A stretch of 37,120 nucleotides of DNA, from contig CALVEY010000022.1 of the NCBI GenBank assembly GCA_944326705.1, positions 1 through 37,120 of the forward strand, read 5' to 3'. A program made the translations under genes and the position numbers. The notes beneath the pieces were generated by a model. That model had not been told where the DNA came from, ran no database searches, and saw only the letters and a list, made by a program, of their open reading frames with translations. The stretch is from an uncultured Mucispirillum sp. GTDB taxonomy: Bacteria; Chrysiogenota; Deferribacteres; Deferribacterales; Mucispirillaceae. Positions 2,111-34,997 of the stretch are shown in pieces (positions within the stretch are counted from its first letter, which is position 1; every line of letters starts with the position of its first letter).

Positions 2111-2186
2111 ATAAGAATATATCATATTTCAAATTAAATAAGTGCAAACGCACCATTGACGATGTGGAATGCACCAGGGGGTTTGT

Positions 2187-3353
2187 ATGATCGAACGTAG
2201 TTTATTATCCGCCGGGATATCTAGGCGGGATTTCATGAAGACAGTTTCAACAGCAACTGCAATCATGGGATTACCACTTGCAATGGCTGAAGAAGTTGTT
2301 GCTCAAGCAGGCAATGAAGATAAACGTCCGCCTGTAATATGGCTTCATTTTCAGGAATGTACTGGATGTTCTGAAGCATTATTAAGAGCTAACCATCCTA
2401 GCATTGCAGAAGTTGTTCTTGATATTATTAATCTTGAGTATCAAGAAACATTAATGGCAGGTTCTGGTGACCAGGCTGAAAAATCACTTCATGATGCTAT
2501 TGAAAAACATGCAGGTAAATATATACTTGTAGTTGAAGGCTCTATTCCAACAGAAGATATGGTAGTATGCTGTCAGGTTGGCGGTAAAACTGCATTAGAT
2601 TCTTTTAAAGAAGCTGCTGCAAAAGCTGCTGTTGTTGTATCTCTTGGTGCATGTGCATGTTCTGGTGGTATTGTTGCTATTGAGCCAAACCCAACAAAAG
2701 CTAAAGGTGTTATAGATATTCTTGCTGGCGAAATGCAATGGTCTGATGATGATTTAGATGCAAAATATATTTCACTCCCAGGCTGCCCACCTAACCCATA
2801 TAATATATTAAGTGTTATTTTATATGTAGCTACTTTTGGAAAACTTCCAGAAAAAGGCTTAAAAATACCAACAATTTCAAATCTTTCTAAAAAAGATGAA
2901 AGAGCTCACCGTCCAACATTTGCTTACGGCAGATTAATTCACGAACACTGCGAACGCAGACCACACTTTGATGCTGGCCGTTTTGCAAAAGAATTTGGTG
3001 ATGATGGCCATAGAAACGGATGGTGCTTATATCACTTAGGATGTAAAGGTCCTGAAACTTATGCTAACTGTTCAATAATCCATTTTAATGATGGTGCTGC
3101 ATGGCCTATCGGAAATGGCTGCCCATGTATCGGCTGTACAGAAGGCACAGTATTATTTAAAGACAGTTTATTCTCATTAGCTAAAGTGGCTCAACCAAAA
3201 CCACATTCAAATATACTTGAAACACAAGGTAGAGGTAAAGAATCCTCCGTTGCACAGGCAGCTGTAGTTGGCGGTCTTGTTGGCGCAGCAATTGGTGCAG
3301 GAGCAGTATTCGCAACTAAACTTCCAAAGGAGCCAGAGGATGAAAACAAATAG
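2187..3353 (+). CDS. hybO: [NiFe] hydrogenase-2-type small subunit
   Basis: Electron-transfer subunit of a periplasmic uptake hydrogenase; it carries electrons from the NiFe site through three Fe-S clusters. From the start at 2187 it has 388 residues. AGGGGG at 2176-2181 supports this start over the in-frame ATG at 2169. A Tat signal (SRRDFMK near residue 12) exports the folded heterodimer. Proximal-cluster cysteines are in ECTGCSE (C58, C61), GACACSGG (C156) and LPGCPPNP (C200). Distal and medial cluster ligands are in HEHCERR, WCLYHLGCKGP, YANC and CPCIGC. The motif is ECTGC, not the ECTCC of oxygen-tolerant enzymes, so a standard oxygen-sensitive enzyme is likely. A C-terminal membrane helix (about 354-377) anchors it. 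The gene order O-A-B-C matches E. coli hyb. Confidence 0.95.
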   Translation: MIERSLLSAGISRRDFMKTVSTATAIMGLPLAMAEEVVAQAGNEDKRPPVIWLHFQECTGCSEALLRANHPSIAEVVLDIINLEYQETLMAGSGDQAEKSLHDAIEKHAGKYILVVEGSIPTEDMVVCCQVGGKTALDSFKEAAAKAAVVVSLGACACSGGIVAIEPNPTKAKGVIDILAGEMQWSDDDLDAKYISLPGCPPNPYNILSVILYVATFGKLPEKGLKIPTISNLSKKDERAHRPTFAYGRLIHEHCERRPHFDAGRFAKEFGDDGHRNGWCLYHLGCKGPETYANCSIIHFNDGAAWPIGNGCPCIGCTEGTVLFKDSLFSLAKVAQPKPHSNILETQGRGKESSVAQAAVVGGLVGAAIGAGAVFATKLPKEPEDENK

Positions 3354-4404
3354 ACGCGATTTTTTAAAGGCAGCAGCAGGCTCTGTGGCAACAGCAGGTG
3401 CGCTTACTTTAACTCCGTCTTATGCATTGGCATCAGATGAAGGAGAGCCTTTTGCAAAAGACACTATGGTTAAATTTTATGATTCAACTGTATGTGTTGG
3501 CTGCCAGGCCTGCGTTGTAGCATGCTATGAAACAAACTTTGTAAATAGAGCTGATAATCTTAATAAACCTAAAGAGGAACGTAACTTTATTGAAAATAAT
3601 GATGTTATTCCTGTTTTAGCAGATGAAGATAAGTTTGATGCACAAGCTCCATGGATACGCATCGACGGTCTTGATTACAGACTCAGAACTATTATTAGAA
3701 AATATGTTGATGAAAATGAAAAATCTCATTTCATTAAACAAAACTGTATGCACTGTAAAAAACCAGGCTGCGTATCTGCATGCCCAGTAAGTGCATTACA
3801 AAAAGATAAAGATGATGGTGTTGTTACTTATGACCCTAACCGCTGCATAGGCTGCCGTTACTGTCAAATGGCATGTCCATTTAACATACCAGCATTTGAA
3901 TGGCACAGAGCTAACCCAAAAATTACTAAATGCGATATGTGCCGCTCAACAATTAACCCTAAAACTAATGATTTTGATATTGATGCAGAGGGTAATGCTA
4001 CTTATAAAGATAACCCTGATAAAGGCACTGCATGTACAAAAGTATGTCCTACTGGTGCTGTTTTATACGGCAGAAGAGAAGATTTACTTAAACTTGCTCA
4101 TGACCGCATTAATCAATCAAAAGAAAAAGGCGAAAACAAATACTATGAAGATACAGCTAGAGGCGAATCTGTTCTTGGTGAAAAAGTTTACGGTGGAACT
4201 GGCGAGCTTGTAATTGCAGCTGTTGATTTCAGAAAACTTGACTTCCCTGTTGATAAAATAGGTGATAGAGCAACTGCTTATAAATCAGAAGGTATCCAGC
4301 ATACAATCTATAAATATGGTATTGCTCCAATAGCCCTTTTTACAGCATTATCTTTAGTTGTTCGTAGAAATGTTAAAAAACATCACGAACATGAGGAGGA
4401 CTAA
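3340..4404 (+). CDS. hybA: hydrogenase-2 ferredoxin-type subunit
   Basis: A periplasmic four-cluster ferredoxin-like protein that passes electrons from HybO to the membrane quinone-reactive subunit HybB. I place the start at 3340, after AAAGGAG at 3326-3332, giving 354 residues and a 14-nt overlap with hybO. A Tat signal, NRRDFLK, is at the extreme N-terminus. Four cysteine groups are visible: CVGCQACVVAC (C52-C62), CMHCKKPGCVSACP, CIGCRYCQMACP, and CDMC with CTKVCP. A single C-terminal hydrophobic helix (GIAPIALFTALSLVV) followed by a basic, His-rich tail fits the membrane-anchored HybA family. An upstream extension to 3268 in the same frame lies inside hybO and has no ribosome binding site. 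Confidence 0.95.
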   Translation: MKTNRRDFLKAAAGSVATAGALTLTPSYALASDEGEPFAKDTMVKFYDSTVCVGCQACVVACYETNFVNRADNLNKPKEERNFIENNDVIPVLADEDKFDAQAPWIRIDGLDYRLRTIIRKYVDENEKSHFIKQNCMHCKKPGCVSACPVSALQKDKDDGVVTYDPNRCIGCRYCQMACPFNIPAFEWHRANPKITKCDMCRSTINPKTNDFDIDAEGNATYKDNPDKGTACTKVCPTGAVLYGRREDLLKLAHDRINQSKEKGENKYYEDTARGESVLGEKVYGGTGELVIAAVDFRKLDFPVDKIGDRATAYKSEGIQHTIYKYGIAPIALFTALSLVVRRNVKKHHEHEED

Positions 4405-4406
4405 TA

Positions 4407-5603
4407 ATGAGTAAGCAAAGAGAATATGCAATTCATAAAGCCCCTATTCTTACTCCTGCATTTTTCATTGTGTTAGCAGTAATATGCATAGGTATGGCTA
4501 TTGTTGTTTACAGATATTTTGTAGGTATTGGTCCTGTATCTAACCTTTCAAACGGCTATCCTTGGGGTATCTGGCTTTCTTATGATGTTGCAACTGGTTC
4601 TGCAATTGCCTGCGGTGGTTATGTATTAGCAGTTACAGTATATGTAATGAATAATTTCAAATATCACACAATGGTTAGGTCTGCAGTGCTTGCAAGTATG
4701 TTTGGATACTGCTTAGCTGGTCTTTCAGTTATGGTGGATATAGGCCGTTACTGGAACTCTTACGGCTTTTTTATGCCTAGCAGAATGAACCCTAATTCAG
4801 CACTTTTTGAAGTTGCTCTTTGTATTATGGCATACTGTGTGGTATTAATACTTGAATATATCCCTGCAGTATTTGAAAAATTTGCAGACAGTGATAAAGC
4901 TAAATCTCCAAAACTTGTAGAATTTGGCAAAACATGGGAAAAAAGATTTTCTAAAGCACTTTTTGTTATTGTTGCAATAGGCGCTACTCTGCCAACAATG
5001 CACCAGTCATCATTAGGGACATTATATGTATTAATGGGCTATAAACTTGACCCTATGTGGCAGACTGGCTTTTTACCACTGTTATTTTTAAGCAATGCTT
5101 ATTTAATGGGTTTTGCTATAACAGCTTTTGAAACAGTGCTTTCTACAAGGTTATTAAAAAGACCGTTTGAAAAAGAGATAGTAGATTTATCAAAAGTAAT
5201 TCCTTTTGTTGTAGCTTTCTGGCTTATAGTAAGGGTTATATCAGTTACTTTAAATGGTGGCTGGGCAAATGCTTTTGCATTTTCTACTCAATCAATATGG
5301 TTCTGGCTTGAACTTATATTAGTTATTGTTCCATCACTTATGATTTTAACATGCAAATATGCTAAAAGCGAAAGCGGTATATTCTTAGTTGGTATGCTTC
5401 TTTTAATCGGTGGTAGTATGTACAGGATTGGTGTATATAACGTAGGCTTTAATCCTGGACCAGAATGGAATACATATTTTCCAAGTGTAGCAGAATTTTT
5501 AATTACTTTAAGCTTTATTGCTATAGAAGTATTTGGATATATGGTACTTGTTAAATTAACCCCTGTGCTTCCAAATCTGGAAAACCATGGGCATCATCAC
5601 TAG
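4407..5603 (+). CDS. hybB: hydrogenase-2 membrane subunit, NrfD/PsrC family
   Basis: An integral cytoplasmic-membrane protein that links the HybOAC hydrogenase to menaquinone. It has 398 residues with about nine to ten hydrophobic segments spread over the whole length. The NrfD-like segment around NLSNGYPWGIWLSYDVATG lies near the N-terminus. The C-terminus is NHGHHH, a natural His-rich tail. It begins three bases after the hybA stop, with AGGAGG at 4394-4399, so translation is tightly coupled. HybB proteins work with HybA in place of a cytochrome b subunit, which separates this class from hydrogenase-1 types. Confidence 0.93.
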   Translation: MSKQREYAIHKAPILTPAFFIVLAVICIGMAIVVYRYFVGIGPVSNLSNGYPWGIWLSYDVATGSAIACGGYVLAVTVYVMNNFKYHTMVRSAVLASMFGYCLAGLSVMVDIGRYWNSYGFFMPSRMNPNSALFEVALCIMAYCVVLILEYIPAVFEKFADSDKAKSPKLVEFGKTWEKRFSKALFVIVAIGATLPTMHQSSLGTLYVLMGYKLDPMWQTGFLPLLFLSNAYLMGFAITAFETVLSTRLLKRPFEKEIVDLSKVIPFVVAFWLIVRVISVTLNGGWANAFAFSTQSIWFWLELILVIVPSLMILTCKYAKSESGIFLVGMLLLIGGSMYRIGVYNVGFNPGPEWNTYFPSVAEFLITLSFIAIEVFGYMVLVKLTPVLPNLENHGHHH

Positions 5604-5657
5604 GCTTTAAGCCTATAAATTGCATATAAATAATATGCTAAAAAGGCTTGTTAGCCT
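5601..5657 (+). promoter_or_regulatory. three consecutive hairpins between hybB and hybC
   Basis: TAGGC/GCCTA (5601-5605, 5611-5615), GCATAT/ATATGC (5622-5627, 5633-5638) and AGGCT/AGCCT (5644-5648, 5653-5657) follow each other in the 81-nt gap. None has a T-run, so they are more likely RNA processing or stability elements than terminators. The hybC ribosome binding site AAAGGAG follows at 5672-5678. Confidence 0.55.
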
Positions 5658-5684
5658 AAAAGATTATAAAAAAAGGAGATTTAT

Positions 5685-7394
5685 ATGCCAGTTAATGGAA
5701 ATAGAATTACAGTAGACCCAATTACAAGGATTGAAGGTCACCTGCGTATAGATGTAGAAGTAGAAGGCGGTAAAGTATCTAACTCTTGGTCATCTGCCCA
5801 AGCATTTAGAGGAATTGAAACTATTATGAGAGGTAAAGACCCACGCAGTGCATGGGCTATGACTCAGCGTTTCTGTGGTGTTTGTACAACTACTCATGCA
5901 TTATGCTCTATTAGAACTGTTGAAGATGCATTAAATGTGCCTGTGCCAGTTAATGCTCATATGCTTAGAAACTTAGTAAGCACTATGCAGTCTTTACAAG
6001 ACCATATAGTTCATTTTTATCATTTAACAGCATTAGACTGGGTTGATATTGTAAGTGCATTATCTGCAGACCCTGCTAAAGCTGGTAAAATAGCAGAAAG
6101 CCTTGCAGCTTATTCACCAATAGGCAAAGCATGGCCAGCAAACTCATTTAACACTATGAAAAATGCTAAAGACCGTTTAGCTGCATTTGTTGGCACTAAA
6201 AATTTAGGTATCTATGGCTCTGGTTACTGGGGTCACAAAGATATGAGACTTACTCCAGAAATTAACTTACTTGCTTTTGCTCACTATTTAGAAGCATTAG
6301 AATACCAACGCAAAATTGCAGAAGCAGTTGCAATCATCGGTAGTAAAAACCCACATATTCAAAACTTAACGGTTGGTGGTGTATCTACTGCAATTAACTT
6401 TGACAGTATGGCTGCACTTAACATGGAAAGAGTTCAATGGATTAAAAAACTTCTTGATGAAACAGCTGATTTCGTAAGATGTGTATATATTCCAGATGTT
6501 ATTGCAATTGCAGGTGCATATAAAGACTGGTTTGACCTTGGTAAATGCTCACCAAACTATATTGCAGTGCCAGATGTTCCAATGAACAGCGAATTAACTG
6601 AATTTGGTTTAAAAGGCGGTATTATTATAGGCGATAAATTCAGAGAAATCAAAACATGGAAAGACGAAGCATTAAGAAAAGGTATTACAGAAAATACTAC
6701 TCATGCATGGTATAAAAATGCAAAAGATACATTACATCCTTATGAAGGAGACCAAATTCCAGCATATACTGACTGGCAGGAAAATGGTAAATATTCTTGG
6801 GCAAAAGCACCACGCTTTGAAGATAATGTAACTCAAACTGGTCCTATCGCTCAAGTATTAGCAGGCTATATGGCTGGCGACCCACTTGTTAAAAAATATG
6901 TAGATTTCGTTGCTTCAAAAGTTGGTGTAACTATTCCACAGCTTAACTCTGTAATGGGCCGTAATGCAGCAAGAGCTATCAGAGCATTATTAATGGTTGA
7001 CCATGCATATCTCTGTTTAGAAAAATTACTTGATAACTGCAAAACAGACCAAAGCTATGTAAACTACTTAAAAGAAGTTCCAACTGATAAAGAATATATC
7101 GGTGTTGGCTTTAACGAAGCTCCACGCGGTATGCTTTCTCACTGGATTAAAATTAAAAATGGTGTAATAGAAAACTACAGCGCAGTTGTTCCTTCTACAT
7201 GGACAGCAGGTCCAAGAGATGATAAAGGCAGAAAAGGTCCTTATGAAGAATCATTAATGAACCTTCCTGTTGCAGAAATGGATAAACCACTTGAAGTTAT
7301 CCGTTCTATTCACTCTTTTGACCCTTGCATAGCTTGTGCCGTTCACACTATTGACCCAGAAGGCAAAGAAGTAGTGAATGTTAAAATCAGATAA
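5685..7394 (+). CDS. hybC: [NiFe] hydrogenase-2-type large subunit
   Basis: The catalytic subunit that oxidises H2 at a NiFe(CN)2CO centre in the periplasm. It has 569 residues. The N-terminal nickel motif RFCGVCTTTH holds C64 and C67; the C-terminal motif DPCIACAVH holds C548 and C551. After H554 there are exactly 15 more residues, beginning TIDPEGKE. This is the classic propeptide removed by a HybD-type endopeptidase once nickel is inserted. No hyp or hybD maturation gene lies in this window. There is no signal peptide; export is by piggy-back on the HybO Tat signal. AAAGGAG ends six bases before the ATG. Confidence 0.97.
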   Translation: MPVNGNRITVDPITRIEGHLRIDVEVEGGKVSNSWSSAQAFRGIETIMRGKDPRSAWAMTQRFCGVCTTTHALCSIRTVEDALNVPVPVNAHMLRNLVSTMQSLQDHIVHFYHLTALDWVDIVSALSADPAKAGKIAESLAAYSPIGKAWPANSFNTMKNAKDRLAAFVGTKNLGIYGSGYWGHKDMRLTPEINLLAFAHYLEALEYQRKIAEAVAIIGSKNPHIQNLTVGGVSTAINFDSMAALNMERVQWIKKLLDETADFVRCVYIPDVIAIAGAYKDWFDLGKCSPNYIAVPDVPMNSELTEFGLKGGIIIGDKFREIKTWKDEALRKGITENTTHAWYKNAKDTLHPYEGDQIPAYTDWQENGKYSWAKAPRFEDNVTQTGPIAQVLAGYMAGDPLVKKYVDFVASKVGVTIPQLNSVMGRNAARAIRALLMVDHAYLCLEKLLDNCKTDQSYVNYLKEVPTDKEYIGVGFNEAPRGMLSHWIKIKNGVIENYSAVVPSTWTAGPRDDKGRKGPYEESLMNLPVAEMDKPLEVIRSIHSFDPCIACAVHTIDPEGKEVVNVKIR

Positions 7395-27500: not shown

Positions 27501-27664
27501 ATTAGACATATTCCAAGTTTAAAAAACAAGTATTATGATTTATAACTATGTTATAAATAAAATTTTGCACATAAATACTGCTGTAAAATAATATTTATTT
27601 GATAAAAAATACTTAATTTATAAAACTGTTCTATTCTATTTGAATGTTTATTTAACATAGTAAA

Positions 27665-27683
27665 TAAGACATGTTTTGTCTTA
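27665..27683. promoter_or_regulatory. inverted repeat upstream of the molybdoreductase operon
   Basis: TAAGACA (27665-27671) and TGTCTTA (27677-27683) are perfect 7-bp arms with a 5-bp spacer. It lies about 145 bp before the dmsA-like start and just upstream of a TTGACA (27713-27718). Looks like a dimeric regulator site; the regulator is unknown. Confidence 0.45.
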
Positions 27684-27712
27684 AAATATTAATAAATAAG
27701 AGATAAATAAAT

Positions 27713-27798
27713 TTGACAAATTATACAGATATGTTAATCTTGTATAAATTATGGATTTTTACCTATTGACTAAGTTAAAAAATTGATATAGTTATAAA
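27713..27798 (+). promoter_or_regulatory. promoter region of the molybdoreductase operon
   Basis: TTGACA (27713-27718) has no good -10 at standard spacing. TTGACT (27766-27771) has TATAGT/TAGTTA at 27787-27794, with a 15-17 bp spacer. The second is more likely because it lies 25-60 bp before the GGAGG ribosome binding site. The rest of 27501-27712 is AT-rich with no gene seen. Confidence 0.35.
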
Positions 27799-27825
27799 AA
27801 TAAATATTTATTGGAGGCGAAAAAT

Positions 27826-30800
27826 ATGGGAAAAGAAACTAATGTTTTAAAATCATTAGAAGAAAGCTCAGTTTCAAGACGTTCCTTTTTAAAGGGCACA
27901 GCAGCTCTTGGTGCTATGGCTGCTATGTATGGCTGCTCTAAAGATGGCGGCTCAGAAATTATATACGGGGGGGGGATTGACGGCTCAACCGATGTAGAAA
28001 TACCAGAAACTGGCGAAGTAAAATATTTTTACGGAGCAAGTGGTCACAACTGCGGCGGTCGCTGCATAAGTAAAGCCGAAGTAATCAACGGCACAATTAA
28101 AAGAATCCTTACAGACGAAAGTCTTTACACTCCAGATGGCACTTATATTGACCCAGAAAGCAGAAACTTTCCTCAAACAAGGTCATGCTCAAGATGTCGT
28201 TCATATAAATATCGTTTATATCATCCAGGAAGATTATTATATCCATTAAAACAAACTAAAAAACGTGGTGATTTATCAGGCTTTAAACGTATTACATGGG
28301 AACAGGCTTATAATGAGATTGCTGCAAAACATCAAAAAGTTTTAGCTAAATATGGTGTAGATGGTATATACCAAATATATGCCTGTGGTTCTGTTTCAAG
28401 CCAGTTTAATGGTTCTCAATCAGGTGCGATTGGTAAAACTAATGGTTATGTAATGAAGGCAATGGGTGGTGTAACCACTACAATGTTTGGTTCATATTCT
28501 ACTCACCAAAATACATATTTTGGTTTAAATTATACAGGTATGGATGCAGACATAGATGCAAACTTAGTTGCCAAATATACTCATAATTTAGTATTATGGG
28601 GCGACAACTCAATGACTACAGGAAATAACTCAGCATGGGCTTCTTCAAAGGCTGTTGAAGATATGAAAAACCGTGGTACTGGAGCATCTGTTACTTTTAT
28701 TGGACCAGAATTTGTTGAAACTGGTATGGTATTAGCAGATAAATGGATAAAATCAAAACCTTATACAGACCCTGCTTTAGTTGCAGTAATCGTTTATAAA
28801 TTACTTGAACAAACATTTAATCTTGAGACAGGTGAGTTACTTGATAATCCTGCATTAGATATAGATTATCTTGATACAATGGTGTATGGTTTCTTTGATT
28901 CTCCAGAATACTGGGTGCATAATACTACTGGTGAAATAGTGACAGAAAATCCATCAGATGATGTAAACTATCGCCATGTTCGAGCAGTTCCAGCTGGTGA
29001 GTCTTATTGCTCATGGGTGCTTGGTAATAATGCTAATGCAAAAACTTATGCAGAACTTGGAGCAGCTAGAAACTATACAGCATCTAAATTTGGTAATACT
29101 AAACGCTGGGCACCTTGCTCATATACAGTAACAAGTGGAAATGCTACAAAATATAAAACTAAACAAGATTTTCAAAAACCTAAAAATGCAGCATGGGCAT
29201 CTCCAATTACAGGCGTTTCTGAAAGTTCTATTGATTATTTAGTAAATATATTTAAAGATTCAAGACCTGTAAATTCAAGATGGTCTGGTGGTCAGCAGAA
29301 ACAGCATGATGGTATAGCTAACCTTTATGCAGTGCAGGCTTTACATATTATTACAAAACATGTTGGTCAAAAAGGTTCTGCTTTTTCATGGCATCCATTT
29401 ACAGCATCTGTATTAAAACAAGAAAGTGTTTATGATACAAACTTTAATCCTGCTACTACTCAAGTTATAGGAAAACGTCCTATTATATCATGTACAGCAT
29501 GGCATACTACAATCAAAAAATGTTTTGCAGGTGAAATGGCTGAAGGCGGCTATACTCACAATTCTATCCCTAACTATGAAGCAGGCAGTATAGATGATTT
29601 CTACTGGGACGATGGCGGTACAAAAGCAATGGTTCAGTGGAGAAGAAATGCTGATGGCTCATTAAAAGAGTATACTGATAATAATGGTAATACTTTCTAT
29701 GACTGGGAAGGAAGAACAAGCACAGCAGCAAGTGATACTGATACTGCAGAAGGTCATGCAGCAGGTACACCAATATATGCAGGTATAAGATTATTATATA
29801 ATGCTGGTGGTAATATATTTATGAATCAGCATGAAAACTCAAATGACTCAAGAGATATGCTTGAATCATTACCACAAAATGATGGTTCTGCTGATACTTT
29901 TTGCCTTGTATCAATAGATAACTTTATGTCTGCAACTCCAAGATACAGCGACTATGTACTTCCTGCTTCAACATTTTGGGAACAGCAGGATATAGTAGCA
30001 CCTTATGCATCACCAGCATTTTACACAGAACAAGTAATTCTTCCTCCTGGTGAAGCAAAACCAGTATGGGATATTGGTCAGCAGTTACTTAAAACTTATG
30101 AAAATGCTTATGGTGGTTCTCACTATCAAGAAGTTTATCAAGAAGGAGAAACTATTGAAGCAGTTATTAAAGGAAGATTTGAAGCATGGAAATCTTCTTC
30201 ACCATTTGCAGATAAAACTTGGGAAGAATATAAAGAAAATCCATTAATGCCTGCTAAACCAGATGATTTTACAGAATCTACACCAGCAAGAAAAACTGTA
30301 ATGGATAATTATAATAGTGCAAATAAAATGCTTGCTTTTATTAAACCAAATGATGCTGCATACAGTGTAAGCACAAATGAATATAATCAAGGTGGTTATG
30401 GTAATGAATATGCAAATACAACAACTGCACCACAGTCACCAAAAAGATTTCAAGTATATTCTCCAGTGCTTGTATGGCAGTATGAAAATAAATTCAGCAA
30501 ATGGCATGGTTATCTTCCAGCAGAAAAACGTGGTCAACAACATAAAGACCATGAAGGTGATGATATAGTTTTACCACTTCCAATCTACTATGCATATGAA
30601 GATTACTTTATGGAAGCTTATGGCTGTTATAATTCTGTAAACTCTGCAGAAGATATGAATACAAAATATCCATATTTATTAACAACTACACATGACAGAT
30701 TCCGTTCTCACTCATCATTGGCAGAAAATCCAATATTAAGAGAACTTTCTCACAGAGTGCCAGGTGTTAAACAAAATACTAAAAATCCTAATGCTCCATA

Positions 30801-31293
30801 CACTCGTAAAGAAGATACTTTTAAACCTGCTAATGACTATGGTTATTATGCAACTGGTCCAAGTGCTGCATTTAATATTAATGAAGGTGGCGAATATCCA
30901 AAATTAAGCAAAACTATTAATGATGATGGCACAGTAAACAGTGAATATAAAGATATCGCATCTTACACTGAAGTATGGCTTAATGAAAACACAAAAGATG
31001 CATCTGGTCAGCAAATTAATGATGGTGATTTAGTGCAGATTGAAAATCCAATCGGCGCTGTTCGCTGTGTAGCAAGGCTTTCTAAAAGATGTAGACCTGG
31101 GTTTATTGGTTTACACCAAGGCTGCTGGTATGACCCAAGAGAAGGAATATCTCCAATGGATAGTGCTCATACATATAAATCAGTAGATGTTGGTGGTAAC
31201 TGTAATACATTAATGGCATCACAGCCATCTCGTATTGACCATGGTAACGGTCAGCAGTCTGCAATGGTACAGATTTATAAAATAAATAATTAG
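27826..31293 (+). CDS. DmsA-like molybdopterin oxidoreductase, Tat-exported, likely lipoprotein
   Basis: Catalytic subunit of a respiratory reductase of the DMSO reductase family. I set the start at 27826, after GGAGG at 27813-27817, giving 1155 residues, far above the roughly 800 of E. coli DmsA. Tat motif SRRSFLK (R18, R19) is followed by a hydrophobic stretch and MYGC37, a plausible lipobox. Codons 48-50 are an unbroken run of nine G (27967-27975). The Fe-S motif reads SGHNCGGRC (C76, C80) and later RSCSRC (C121, C124); the usual first Cys is Ser72. FGSYSTHQ offers Ser225 as molybdenum ligand, as in DmsA. LPASTFWEQQD, TTTHDRFRSHS and the C-terminal GLHQGCWYDP region are family features. 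Substrate is unproven; DMSO, TMAO or another oxide are candidates. First gene of a five-gene operon. Confidence 0.9.
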   Translation: MGKETNVLKSLEESSVSRRSFLKGTAALGAMAAMYGCSKDGGSEIIYGGGIDGSTDVEIPETGEVKYFYGASGHNCGGRCISKAEVINGTIKRILTDESLYTPDGTYIDPESRNFPQTRSCSRCRSYKYRLYHPGRLLYPLKQTKKRGDLSGFKRITWEQAYNEIAAKHQKVLAKYGVDGIYQIYACGSVSSQFNGSQSGAIGKTNGYVMKAMGGVTTTMFGSYSTHQNTYFGLNYTGMDADIDANLVAKYTHNLVLWGDNSMTTGNNSAWASSKAVEDMKNRGTGASVTFIGPEFVETGMVLADKWIKSKPYTDPALVAVIVYKLLEQTFNLETGELLDNPALDIDYLDTMVYGFFDSPEYWVHNTTGEIVTENPSDDVNYRHVRAVPAGESYCSWVLGNNANAKTYAELGAARNYTASKFGNTKRWAPCSYTVTSGNATKYKTKQDFQKPKNAAWASPITGVSESSIDYLVNIFKDSRPVNSRWSGGQQKQHDGIANLYAVQALHIITKHVGQKGSAFSWHPFTASVLKQESVYDTNFNPATTQVIGKRPIISCTAWHTTIKKCFAGEMAEGGYTHNSIPNYEAGSIDDFYWDDGGTKAMVQWRRNADGSLKEYTDNNGNTFYDWEGRTSTAASDTDTAEGHAAGTPIYAGIRLLYNAGGNIFMNQHENSNDSRDMLESLPQNDGSADTFCLVSIDNFMSATPRYSDYVLPASTFWEQQDIVAPYASPAFYTEQVILPPGEAKPVWDIGQQLLKTYENAYGGSHYQEVYQEGETIEAVIKGRFEAWKSSSPFADKTWEEYKENPLMPAKPDDFTESTPARKTVMDNYNSANKMLAFIKPNDAAYSVSTNEYNQGGYGNEYANTTTAPQSPKRFQVYSPVLVWQYENKFSKWHGYLPAEKRGQQHKDHEGDDIVLPLPIYYAYEDYFMEAYGCYNSVNSAEDMNTKYPYLLTTTHDRFRSHSSLAENPILRELSHRVPGVKQNTKNPNAPYTRKEDTFKPANDYGYYATGPSAAFNINEGGEYPKLSKTINDDGTVNSEYKDIASYTEVWLNENTKDASGQQINDGDLVQIENPIGAVRCVARLSKRCRPGFIGLHQGCWYDPREGISPMDSAHTYKSVDVGGNCNTLMASQPSRIDHGNGQQSAMVQIYKINN
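27967..27975 (+). repeat. nine-G homopolymer inside the reductase gene
   Basis: An uninterrupted run of nine G encoding Gly48-Gly50, just after the presumed lipidated cysteine. With ten G the next codons become GAT TGA; with eight G the frame reaches TAG within about ten codons. Both lengths switch the gene off. Confidence 0.95.
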
Positions 31294-31304
31294 GAGCTAT
31301 GGAT

Positions 31305-31967
31305 ATGGAAATAAATAAAAAAACAGTTCAAGTAAAAAGATGGGCATTTTATTTTGACCAATCAAGGTGTCTTGCATGTAATGCATGTACAGTAGCCTGC
31401 AAAGACTGGTATGGTGTAAACCCTGGAGAAGTAAGCTATAGACATCAAATGACTTATGAAATGGAAACAGATGGTATTCCATCATTTTATTCACTTGTAA
31501 TGAGCTGTAATCACTGTGAAAATCCTGCATGTGTTTCAGCCTGTGCAGCAGGTGCAATCACAAAACGTTCTGATGGTATAGTTATAGTTGATAGAAGCAA
31601 ATGTCAGGAATTAAAGTCATGTTTATCAGCATGTCCATTTGGTGCACCAGGAATTGCAGATGACAGGCAGGAACCAGTAAAAGGTAACGAAAAATGGTCA
31701 TACAATCACCCAATGCAGAAATGTAATATGTGCTATGACTTACTTGATAAAGGCGAAAAAACAATATGCGAGCGTTCATGTGTTGGTCATGCAATAGAAG
31801 TTGGTGATTATGATGAATTAATGGCAAAACATGCTGGAGCTGTTCAAGTTAATATTTCTCAGTTCCCATATGCTTATAAAAATGGAACAGATACATCAAC
31901 AGGTCCAAGTTTCTTAATTAAACCAAGAAAAGCTTTATCTGTAGATAAAGCATATGGTGAAGAATAA
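31305..31967 (+). CDS. DmsB-like four-cluster ferredoxin subunit
   Basis: Electron-transfer partner of the molybdoenzyme, 220 residues, with no signal of its own, so it is probably exported with the Tat-borne subunit. AGGAG at 31292-31296 favours the ATG at 31305 (8-nt spacing) over the one at 31299 (2 nt). Cysteine groups: C22-C25-C28-C32; C68-C71-C76-C80; C100-L103-C106-C110; C140-C143-C155-C159. In the third group the second ligand is Leu (KCQELKSC), which in NarH-type proteins (Trp there) gives a [3Fe-4S] cluster. It starts 11 nt after the reductase stop. Confidence 0.92.
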   Translation: MEINKKTVQVKRWAFYFDQSRCLACNACTVACKDWYGVNPGEVSYRHQMTYEMETDGIPSFYSLVMSCNHCENPACVSACAAGAITKRSDGIVIVDRSKCQELKSCLSACPFGAPGIADDRQEPVKGNEKWSYNHPMQKCNMCYDLLDKGEKTICERSCVGHAIEVGDYDELMAKHAGAVQVNISQFPYAYKNGTDTSTGPSFLIKPRKALSVDKAYGEE

Positions 31968-31981
31968 TTAATAAAATATAC

Positions 31982-32013
31982 ATCATCTGCTGAATAATCA
32001 GCAGATGATTTTT
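31982..32013 (+). terminator. intra-operon terminator-like hairpin
   Basis: A perfect 12-bp inverted repeat, ATCATCTGCTGA (31982-31993) with TCAGCAGATGAT (31998-32009), loop ATAA, then T-rich to 32013. It lies between the ferredoxin and chaperone genes and ends three bases before the chaperone ribosome binding site. It probably attenuates downstream expression or protects the upstream mRNA. Confidence 0.75.
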
Positions 32014-32024
32014 ATGGAGATATA

Positions 32025-32696
32025 ATGCATCAAGAAGAAATAATCAGCAGTATGCAGGGCAGAGAAGTAATCTATGCTTTTTTTTCAGATATTTTTTTAT
32101 TTTTAGCAGATGATAAACATGTAATGCTGTTAAAAGAGATTCTGCCAGCATTAAAAGAAATATGTCAAGGCAGTAGTGAAGTAAAAGAAAGTATAGAGCT
32201 GCTTGAAAACTATACTGATAAATATATAAAAGCAGAAAATAAGCAGGAATTACTGGATAACTTGAATATATCCTATACTCGCTTATACTGTTTAGGTAAT
32301 GGAGTTCCATTATCAGAATCTGTATATGTATCTCCAATCCATTTAACAAGGCAGGAATCAGAAATAGAGGCAGGTAGAATATATAAGCTGTGCAGTTTTG
32401 ATATGAAACATAATGCAAATGAGCCTAAAGACCATTTATCTTATGAGCTAATGTTTATGTCATATTTAAGCAAAGGAATATCAAAACATCTTGCAGTAAA
32501 TAATATACAAGAAGCTTCTAAACTTACTGCTTTGCAAAAAGAGTTTTTAAATAACCATATACTAAACTGGATAGATGAAATGAGTATGCTGACTAAAAAA
32601 ATATCAGAATCTTATGAATTTTATTATCCACTTACAGTAGTATTACAAAGTTATTTAAAGGCGGATAATGAATATTTAGAAACCTTGGAATTTTAA
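32025..32696 (+). CDS. TorD/DmsD-family Tat maturation chaperone
   Basis: A cytoplasmic all-helical chaperone of 223 residues. The family binds the Tat signal of its molybdoenzyme and holds it until cofactor insertion is complete. The hallmark EPKDHLSYELMFMSYL (133-148) corresponds to the conserved EPxDHxxxELxFM motif, and FLNNHILNWIDEM to the later FLxxHLxxW motif. The partner is the DmsA-like protein encoded upstream. GGAGA at 32016-32020 precedes the ATG. Confidence 0.9.
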   Translation: MHQEEIISSMQGREVIYAFFSDIFLFLADDKHVMLLKEILPALKEICQGSSEVKESIELLENYTDKYIKAENKQELLDNLNISYTRLYCLGNGVPLSESVYVSPIHLTRQESEIEAGRIYKLCSFDMKHNANEPKDHLSYELMFMSYLSKGISKHLAVNNIQEASKLTALQKEFLNNHILNWIDEMSMLTKKISESYEFYYPLTVVLQSYLKADNEYLETLEF

Positions 32697-32716
32697 AAAT
32701 TAAGGAGCAAATGCCT

Positions 32717-34255
32717 ATGAAAAGGCTGATGTTATATACATTAACATGTTTGTTAGCTTTAGCAGTCCCAGCTTTTGCCTATGTTGGCGATGCCTATGTT
32801 ACACCAGACTCATGGAGTAAGCATGTAAACGCTAACGGAATCAAAGCAAGTTTAAACGGCTTAGATTTTGGTGATTCAGGGATATTAAAAATAGGGTTAA
32901 CAACAAGAGCCACAATGAAATTTGGCGAAGATGAAGACTGGTCAATATATCAATATGCTAGGCTTAGATTAAGTGATGCAAAACTTGGCCAGGGGACAGT
33001 GAATGTAAACTTAAATATGCGAGGCGCTTATGACAGCCTTCCAAGTATTGGCGGCAGCACAATGGACGGCATATCAGCAAGCCAGCAGGGAAGCAGTTAT
33101 AATCAGTTTTATGACGGTTTATATACATCAAGAAAATATGATGAATATACCCGCTTAAACGGACACTATGACGGCAACTTTAGAATATATCAAGCCAATG
33201 TAGAGTTTAAAAAAGTAGTGCCATACACAGATATAGCAGCAGGCAGAATCTACTTAAACAACTTAGATATGTATAAAATAGACGGGGGCAGCCTTCATTT
33301 TGATACATGCGACTACTTTAAACTTGATGTATACGGCGGTCTTCCAGTGAGCTATTACAGCAACTTAAAAACATCTGTAGTAGGTGCAGCATTAGAAGTG
33401 CCAATAGCAGTAAGCGGTACAAAAATCAGAGCAGAATACAACTACTTTATGCATGAAGATGGCGGCGATTTTAATACACATGTTGCCAAAGGCAGAATAG
33501 ACCAGAACTTAAACTTTCCAGATATAATATCATCAAATATATATCTTGAAGGCGCAATAGTAGGTAAAGCCATGCTTTATGAAGCAGGTTTAGATGCCAA
33601 TATAGATGCAAGCCGCACAGGTGTATCAGCATACATTGCAGGCCAGTATGATAAAAATACAGGTGATATCAACCCATATGTATCCATGTATGAAGATATG
33701 TTAGGCGGCTCAAGTGAATATGTAATGGGTGGCGTAATGCTGACACAAGGCATCACTGATTATGTAATAGTAGGAGTAGGCTGGGAAACAAGATTTAACT
33801 TCAGCGAAGCTTACGGAGACAGAGACTACCAAAGAGTATTTGGTAATGTAGACTTAGTAGGCTTAATCCATAAAAACAACTACTTAAGCTTAATAGTAGA
33901 CTGGTATGATGTGGCAGAATACAAAAGACAGGACAGCAACTCTAAAGTAATGGGTGGTTTTAGAATGACTCAGGTATTTACAGACAGAATAGAAGGCTGG
34001 GTAGGTGTGAATGTTCAGAATTACCAGTATAGAAACAGCCCAATAAAATCATACCCACAGTATGGAGAAGAAGTGCTGAATTTAAGCGAAAGAAACGAAA
34101 ACACAACAATGGCATACATTGGCGCAATGTATCGTCCAGTAGACTGGTGTGTATTACAGCTTGATTATACTTATGAATATGCAGACCTTTTTAAAAGTGC
34201 AGACTTACAGCCAGATATTCATACAGTAAGTATCTGGGCAAACTTTATCTGGTAG
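32717..34255 (+). CDS. outer-membrane beta-barrel protein, porin-like
   Basis: A secreted protein of 512 residues from this start; 514 from the ATG at 32711, which is only three bases from AAGGAG at 32702-32707. Sec signal MKRLMLYTLTCLLALAVPAFA. The mature chain is a long series of alternating polar/hydrophobic strands with many Tyr, Gly and aromatic girdle residues (ARLRLSDAKL, KFKLDVYGG-type strands), and it ends SIWANFIW with a terminal aromatic, as in BAM substrates. There is no CxxC or haem motif at the N-terminus, so it is not a recognisable MtrB. The neighbouring five-haem cytochrome (12 nt away) and lipoprotein reductase suggest it is a conduit or anchor across the outer membrane. Function is inferred from context only. 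Confidence 0.75.
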   Translation: MKRLMLYTLTCLLALAVPAFAYVGDAYVTPDSWSKHVNANGIKASLNGLDFGDSGILKIGLTTRATMKFGEDEDWSIYQYARLRLSDAKLGQGTVNVNLNMRGAYDSLPSIGGSTMDGISASQQGSSYNQFYDGLYTSRKYDEYTRLNGHYDGNFRIYQANVEFKKVVPYTDIAAGRIYLNNLDMYKIDGGSLHFDTCDYFKLDVYGGLPVSYYSNLKTSVVGAALEVPIAVSGTKIRAEYNYFMHEDGGDFNTHVAKGRIDQNLNFPDIISSNIYLEGAIVGKAMLYEAGLDANIDASRTGVSAYIAGQYDKNTGDINPYVSMYEDMLGGSSEYVMGGVMLTQGITDYVIVGVGWETRFNFSEAYGDRDYQRVFGNVDLVGLIHKNNYLSLIVDWYDVAEYKRQDSNSKVMGGFRMTQVFTDRIEGWVGVNVQNYQYRNSPIKSYPQYGEEVLNLSERNENTTMAYIGAMYRPVDWCVLQLDYTYEYADLFKSADLQPDIHTVSIWANFIW

Positions 34256-34267
34256 GGGGAAGAAGTA

Positions 34268-34771
34268 ATGAAAATGAAATTATTAATAATCGGCTTATTC
34301 TCTTTACTTATAGCAAGTGTAACACTAGCAGTAGACAGCACAAAGCCGTCTACTCATAATAGCACCTGGGAAAAACAGCACGGTCAGGCAGCAAAAACTA
34401 ATATGAGTGAATGCTTAATGTGCCACGAAGAAAGAAGTGAATGTATAGCATGTCACGAAGATACAGCACCAAGAAGCCATACAGTAACATTTGTAAATAA
34501 AACACATGGCTTAGAAGCAAGGTGGAACAGGACAACATGCCAGACATGTCATAAACAGGATTTCTGTGATGCATGTCATGAAACAGCATATCCAATGAGC
34601 CATGCAAGAGCAAACTTTGCATCAGGCGTGCAGACAGACCCAGGCTCACACTGCGGCACAAGCTGTGTAATCCCTGTAGGCAACTGGAGCAATACGCCAG
34701 CAAAAAACTGTATAGTATGTCATAAAACAAGACCAATGACAAAAGCAGGTGCACTGCATACTATGAAGTAA
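34268..34771 (+). CDS. five-haem periplasmic cytochrome c
   Basis: A small multihaem cytochrome of 167 residues with a Sec signal (LLIIGLFSLLIASVTLAV). Five CxxCH motifs: C49-H53, C59-H63, C91-H95, C100-H104 and C148-H152. A further C129-x3-C133 pair has no His and may be a disulphide. Additional histidines (H70, H80, H112, H164) could be distal ligands. It would shuttle electrons in the periplasm or within the barrel to the reductase. The preceding AGGGGGAAG gives the ribosome binding site. Last gene of the operon. Its small size contrasts with the decahaem DmsE/MtrA cytochromes of Shewanella. Confidence 0.9.
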   Translation: MKMKLLIIGLFSLLIASVTLAVDSTKPSTHNSTWEKQHGQAAKTNMSECLMCHEERSECIACHEDTAPRSHTVTFVNKTHGLEARWNRTTCQTCHKQDFCDACHETAYPMSHARANFASGVQTDPGSHCGTSCVIPVGNWSNTPAKNCIVCHKTRPMTKAGALHTMK

Positions 34772-34806
34772 CATATAAGATATTTTATTATCTTATTATA
34801 AAAATA

Positions 34807-34835
34807 TAGTCCGCCTTTAATATAAGGGCGGACTA
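34807..34835. terminator. GC-rich hairpin after the cytochrome gene
   Basis: TAGTCCGCC (34807-34815) pairs with GGCGGACTA (34827-34835). There is little T after it on the plus strand, so termination is uncertain. On the minus strand the downstream sequence is T-rich. It is 35 bases past the cytochrome stop. Confidence 0.6.
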
Positions 34836-34853
34836 CTATAAAAATTTACATAT

Positions 34854-34946
34854 TATAATATTTGTGACTAGATATCTTTTCCCATAAGGTATCTACCATT
34901 AACATTTGTAGGTCTGCTCTGTTTTTTTACAGGGTAGACTTTTTTA
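34854..34946 (+). ncRNA. possible small RNA (promoter -10 plus terminator)
   Basis: A TATAAT at 34854-34859 is followed 53 bases later by a strong terminator (34912-34946), with no open frame between. A transcript of about 80 nt is possible. The -35 is not convincing, so this may simply be the 3' end of the reductase operon mRNA. Confidence 0.25.
34912..34946 (+). terminator. strong rho-independent terminator
   Basis: An 11-bp stem, GTCTGCTCTGT (34912-34922) with ACAGGGTAGAC (34929-34939), including two G-U pairs, with a T6 loop and a run of T to 34946. It ends the reductase operon or a separate small transcript. Confidence 0.85.
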
Positions 34947-34997
34947 TTTATATAAGATTATTGAAACTTTTATCTTTGAAACTTTTAGACATAAAAA

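Follow-up and report, generated by a model that had tools for sequence, protein, structure and literature searches.

A nine-G tract in a Mucispirillum molybdoreductase gene as a putative phase-variation switch and joint of cassette exchange

The window analysed here, 37,120 nucleotides of a contig from an uncultured Mucispirillum sp. (CALVEY010000022.1, assembly GCA_944326705.1), carries a complete reductase operon whose parts are listed in Table 1. The catalytic subunit combines molybdopterin and dinucleotide-binding domains with a Tat signal, which fits the DMSO-reductase superfamily, and its match to the DmsA/YnfE profile TIGR02166 (E 2e-85, 287 bits) falls below the curated cut-off of 777.7 bits. 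Ser225 is invariant in 16 homologues, and a role as molybdenum ligand can be suggested by analogy only. The protein begins with a Tat motif, SRRSFLK, followed by a lipobox-like AMYGC with its cysteine at residue 37, from which we infer Tat export as a lipoprotein. The leader and linker (residues 1–62) are modelled with low confidence, and the whole-reductase model, itself of low confidence (pLDDT 63), was used solely for this disordered linker; because the region is predicted to be disordered, the number of its glycines could shift by threes without harm.

The predicted outer-membrane barrel is 99–100% identical in four other complete operon copies of the same genome and returned neither a Pfam match nor a PDB sequence match. 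An MtrB-like conduit was considered for it and is not supported, as the fold search gave generic barrels only. The pentahaem cytochrome gene adjoins the barrel gene in every relative examined; with five CXXCH motifs its product is not a decahaem, MtrA-like cytochrome. Rfam gave no known RNA in the operon. Surface exposure of the reductase is possible but unproven, since the lipobox, the adjacent barrel and the pentahaem cytochrome agree with it without deciding the matter. Upstream of most leaders (27636–27800 in the window) lie conserved palindrome-like sequences, AAGAYA...TRTCTTAA and TTRACA...TGTYAA, which are possible sites of a shared regulator. Elsewhere in the window, at 2169–7394, we noted an operon resembling a membrane-bound uptake hydrogenase (small, Fe-S, membrane and large subunits), judged by eye from translations, which could supply electrons from H2 to the reductases.

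Table 1 Features of the reductase operon in the window
Feature	Position	Strand	Basis
Inserted reductase operon, whole	27505..34992	+	the empty site of G008 (L161) aligns up to 27504 and again from 34993
Candidate promoter TTGACT-N15-TATAGT, alike in most paralogues	27766..27792	+	sequence and alignment; inferred
Ribosome-binding site GGAGG, inside the shared leader block	27813..27817	+	sequence, alignment
Leader of 47 codons in common with paralogues (Tat signal peptide, lipobox)	27826..27966	+	paralogue alignment
Catalytic subunit of the molybdopterin reductase, DmsA-like; ON (in frame) in the assembly	27826..31293	+	PF00384, PF01568, PF10518; TIGR02166
Lipobox Cys37 codon (AMYGC)	27934..27936	+	sequence; C37 invariant in 16 homologues
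G9 tract, putatively phase-variable; the 5' homology in cassette exchange ends with it	27967..27975	+	sequence, frames, locus comparison
4Fe-4S subunit (DmsB-like)	31299..31967	+	domain and profile matches
TorD/DmsD-type chaperone (Nitrate_red_del)	32025..32696	+	domain and profile matches
Predicted 22-strand outer-membrane beta-barrel	32711..34255	+	strand prediction, fold search, copy comparison
Five-haem cytochrome c (CXXCH x5), 167 aa	34268..34771	+	sequence; gene neighbourhood
Terminal element of the 3' side, GGTATCTTTTCCCATAAGGTATCTA (this copy has one mismatch), within a stem-loop-rich tail	34871..34895	+	sequence search, folding

The tract forms codons 48–50 (Gly48–Gly50) of the 1155-residue reductase and starts eleven residues after Cys37, just behind the signal and lipobox, where the sequence-only reading had placed it. 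It is the only run of seven or more G in the window, with one G9 match observed against 0.02 expected from dinucleotide-preserving shuffles. GGG is a rare glycine codon here, accounting for 45 of the 687 glycine codons in 24 window genes and for only 4 of 98 in the reductase gene, three of these four being the tract. While the G9 allele keeps all 1155 codons open, reading the other two frames bears out the earlier claim of early stops: the G10 version ends in YGGGD and the G8 version in YGGGLTAQPM, each followed directly by a stop. A homopolymer beyond chance length, in which a change of one G breaks the frame early, satisfies two of the criteria for a contingency locus.

Exact G-run counts over the whole genome (2.39 Mb) are 13 for G6, one for G7, two for G8, 32 for G9, three for G10 and none for longer runs; the peak at nine is a separate tract population and not the tail of chance runs. 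Seven of the 37 G8–10 tracts lie in molybdoreductases (six genes with the shared leader and a second type on contig C12), and others in MBOAT acyltransferases, glycan genes, a type I specificity subunit and a lipoprotein-like gene, while eight of the genome's tracts are C tracts between −35 and −10 hexamers. Most congeners hold 16 to 55 G9 matches, with only two in one incomplete genome, and more distant genomes of the order hold few in most cases, not all. The genome thus employs G/C runs much as other bacteria do at contingency loci, with respiration as one of the main targets.

Several individual tracts deserve record. The spacer tracts (C8–9; window's genome, G000, at C5:13200, C15:8611, C15:10332, C34:18150, C35:101, C36:37, C42:9924 and C66:2787) are of the type TTGACA-TT-C9-ATGA-TATAAT with a spacer of 14–15, where a change in length would alter promoter strength, and two of them precede genes for an outer-membrane barrel and a lipoprotein-like protein. 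In the Tat molybdoreductase of the second kind (L048, C12:34653), a G10 tract precedes the twin-arginine motif; this gene is out of frame, and a diverged copy of the barrel gene lies about 4 kb downstream. At C8:53432 a G9 tract lies mid-gene, in frame, in a type I restriction specificity (HsdS) gene. One genome of the same order, G037, holds 417 overlapping G9 matches in its whole genome, with many runs well over ten G, far above any relative.

Protein searches with the window gene gave matches split in two at the tract: the first 50 residues aligned at high identity, and the body aligned in a different frame. The relatives named by these matches were Mucispirillum and other Deferribacterales metagenome-assembled genomes. 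In the window's genome, six molybdoreductase genes share a Tat-lipoprotein leader that ends in G8–10, of which those on C22 (the window) and C16 are in frame and those on C10 (two genes), C33 and C79 are not. Across seven genomes, 11 of 36 tract-bearing genes are in frame and 25 are out (p = 0.86 against one third), a set that includes five genes at contig edges with only part of the leader. Each species is represented by one genome, and most are metagenome assemblies, the consensus of which may be wrong by one G in a tract. All 8 paralogues that have a related leader but lack the tract are in frame (Fisher p = 0.0004 for the comparison with 11 of 36), and some of them spell the same glycine linker in mixed codons. 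Beyond the tract, every out-of-frame gene keeps roughly 935–1180 open codons, and orthologue pairs with both members out of frame have a dN/dS of 0.13–0.32, similar to that of pairs with an in-frame member.

In the protein tree, in-frame and out-of-frame members are intermixed within orthologue groups, and related genomes differ in tract length or in ON/OFF state, a comparison that holds between species only. The nearest orthologue of the window gene (G002 C169, 92% identical) also has G9 yet is out of frame, because its post-tract linker differs in length. Genes that need G9 for their frame are ON in 9 of 15 cases, and those that need G7 or G10 in 2 of 21; we conclude from this, as a point against the phase switch, that ON/OFF state follows a length set-point near nine and not free variation. 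In some off states a leaderless enzyme could start at an internal ATG that lies in another frame 12 codons before the tract; no ribosome-binding site was seen for it. Phase variation by slippage, which the sequence-only reading had proposed for the window gene, is strongly supported by the comparative evidence (the frame states of the 36 tract genes, mixed states among orthologues, purifying selection, tract-free controls in frame), in the absence of read-level data. The case that would have refuted it, other glycine codons in relatives without length variation, was met only in the tract-free paralogues. The earlier remark that such variation is rare for a respiratory enzyme proved an understatement here, as a whole reductase family carries the tract.

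Comparison of the operons as units suggests a further role for the tract. The window leader is 95–97% identical in DNA to those of three paralogues in the same genome and 79–80% identical to two more; in all pairwise comparisons, identity is 94–98% among four paralogues and 71–82% for pairs that involve the other two. Similarity between paralogues falls off at the tract. The barrel gene, the pentahaem cytochrome gene and the terminal stem-loop element form a 3' module that is 92–98% DNA-identical among operons of the window's genome, and the three genes between the shared modules are unalike or match only in lower-identity patches. Leader dS within one genome is only 0–0.31 (0.07–0.22 in the window's genome), a small value for genes with such distantly paralogous bodies. 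The leaders of G011 all have their closest match within G011, whereas 8 of its 11 bodies are closest to one from another genus. We read this as concerted evolution of the leaders.

Exchange is seen at the pstS–efp site, which is occupied by a different reductase cassette in each of three genomes (the window's, G003 and G009) and is empty in four congeners (G001, G005, G007 and G008), where efp directly follows pstS. Between the window's genome and G003, DNA identity is 88.8% over the stretch that begins 3 kb upstream and stops at the tract's last G. The next 4.8 kb are unalike, and from near the signal–mature junction of the barrel onwards the two match again, at 91.3% identity. The oad locus of G000 and G006 has the same 5' joint with other cassettes. 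As a control, a pair alike in both locus and cassette showed 96.1% identity over the whole of 9 kb. In G009 the match of the 5' flank is broken once upstream of the promoter, and the contig ends before efp. The 25-base terminal element occurs in five copies in the window's genome, those that could be mapped lying at operon 3' ends, and among 16 genomes searched only in G000, G003 and G009; the fold of its tail has a z of −7.9, and it is possibly a terminator or a recombination mark. These breakpoints indicate that the tract, beside its putative role as an ON/OFF switch, is the 5' joint of cassette exchange.

Slippery runs can make a polymerase or a ribosome slip, and programmed frameshifting or transcriptional slippage at the tract would allow all copies to make some enzyme, tuning dosage without a heritable switch. 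Constant low expression of this kind would also account for purifying selection on the off copies, and tract lengths do cluster at nine. Nevertheless, the required frame differs between orthologues (G9 or G7/G10) with no matching change in tract length, and the −35/−10 spacer C tracts of the same genome cannot act by frameshifting, so that the genome appears to use such runs for variation in the DNA itself; frameshifting seems to us unlikely. It is also conceivable that the genes are really all in frame and that homopolymer errors in sequencing or assembly have displaced them, given that most sources are metagenome assemblies and that contigs break at the repeated modules. Such errors could hardly place 25 of 36 genes out of frame in six genomes, one of them a single contig, nor produce a peak at G9 with hardly any G7 runs. 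Closely related species agree in their orthologues (G000 C10 and G003 C15 are both G10 and off), and no such error could create a run conserved across genera. We therefore give this explanation scarcely any credence.

Two further accounts would deprive the out-of-frame copies of a function in place. The exchange of cassettes between loci, with joints at shared modules, recalls a silent archive of the pilE/pilS or vls type, in which an off copy would come into use only once recombined into an active locus. However, none of the six copies lacks an upstream region, a ribosome-binding site or a full leader of its own, so this is not an arrangement of a single expression locus with promoterless copies, and orthologues are ON in one species and off in another; we consider an archive very improbable. 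Finally, 25 copies cannot be fully translated from the leader start codon, as would be expected of decaying pseudogenes with the tract as a mutational accident. Their roughly 1000 intact codons beyond the tract, together with the low dN/dS between off–off orthologues, argue that they are not pseudogenes, and we regard decay as practically ruled out.

We have high confidence in a genome-wide set of contingency loci acting on anaerobic respiration, in which slippage switches each reductase and recombination swaps cassettes. This rests on the observed anatomy, frame states, conservation, purifying selection and exchange breakpoints, while slippage in vivo, loss of function when OFF and a bet-hedging benefit are inferred. 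In the proposed mechanism, each of at least six operons encodes a different DmsA-like molybdoreductase (catalytic subunit, Fe-S subunit and chaperone) between a 5' module, consisting of the ribosome-binding site, Tat signal, lipobox and G8–10 tract in a disordered glycine linker, and a 3' module of barrel and pentahaem cytochrome. Replication slippage would add or remove one G, giving an exported lipoprotein (ON) when the frame is kept and otherwise a stop within a few codons of the tract (OFF). With each tract slipping on its own, the cells of a clone would be expected to differ in which reductases are active. A point against this is that mutS1 is intact in the genome, so that slippage may proceed more slowly than in Campylobacter. 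Homologous recombination between the two shared modules, which are nearly identical from operon to operon, would exchange the reductase cassettes, with the tract as 5' joint. More tentatively, though on balance we favour it, the whole may work as a combinatorial respiratory switchboard, with interchangeable cassettes behind one slippery leader, independent flips and exchange at the tract between loci and species, so that clones diversify both the acceptors they use and the reductases they own.

Phase variation is usually linked to surface antigens, phage receptors and restriction systems, and Mucispirillum is a mucus-associated gut genus that expands in inflammation. A respiratory enzyme family under phase variation in such a genus points to a random choice of the compounds breathed. 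If this is true, the use of electron acceptors would be diversified at random within a clone, and gene presence and short-read annotation would misjudge metabolic capacity, since most copies look broken; G tracts could then be read from metagenomes as a record of the acceptors under selection. Our search of the open-access literature for phase variation, slipped-strand mispairing or DMSO reductase in Mucispirillum, or for phase-variable respiratory reductases, found nothing on point, and most subscription papers were not covered.

The poly-G/C loci of Campylobacter, Helicobacter and Neisseria are alike in having G8–10 near coding 5' ends or in promoter spacers, with frame-dependent ON/OFF states, in a host-associated bacterium, and the other tracts found here likewise lie in glycan, HsdS and outer-membrane genes. 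In contrast to those loci, the targets here are respiratory molybdoreductases, members of one family in the Deferribacterota that have a leader and tract in common, and the tract would double as an exchange joint. Also, mutS1 is present here, whereas mismatch-repair genes are missing from H. bizzozeronii and other epsilonproteobacteria (PMC3234257). Closer to home, M. schaedleri has an uncharacterised system resembling DMSO, tetrathionate and TMAO reductases that is induced in inflammation (PMC5285517); the genus is the same and the kind similar, although its identity with a member of the present family is unchecked, and the words 'phase', 'paralog' and 'frameshift' do not occur in that text. 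The window operon shares with E. coli DmsABC and YnfEFGH a Tat molybdopterin subunit, a DmsB-like Fe-S subunit and a TorD/DmsD-type chaperone, but scores far under the equivalog cut-offs, and no DmsC was seen in it. We take its combination of lipobox, outer-membrane barrel and multihaem cytochrome to resemble the extracellular DmsEFAB layout of Shewanella, although in comparison with DmsEF/MtrAB the cytochrome has only five haems and the barrel has no MtrB-family match. A further parallel is torCAD of E. coli, the stochastic expression of which gives cell-to-cell variation in an anaerobic reductase and has been read as bet-hedging. There the variation is regulatory noise, whereas here, by inference, it would be a heritable, DNA-level switching of many reductases.
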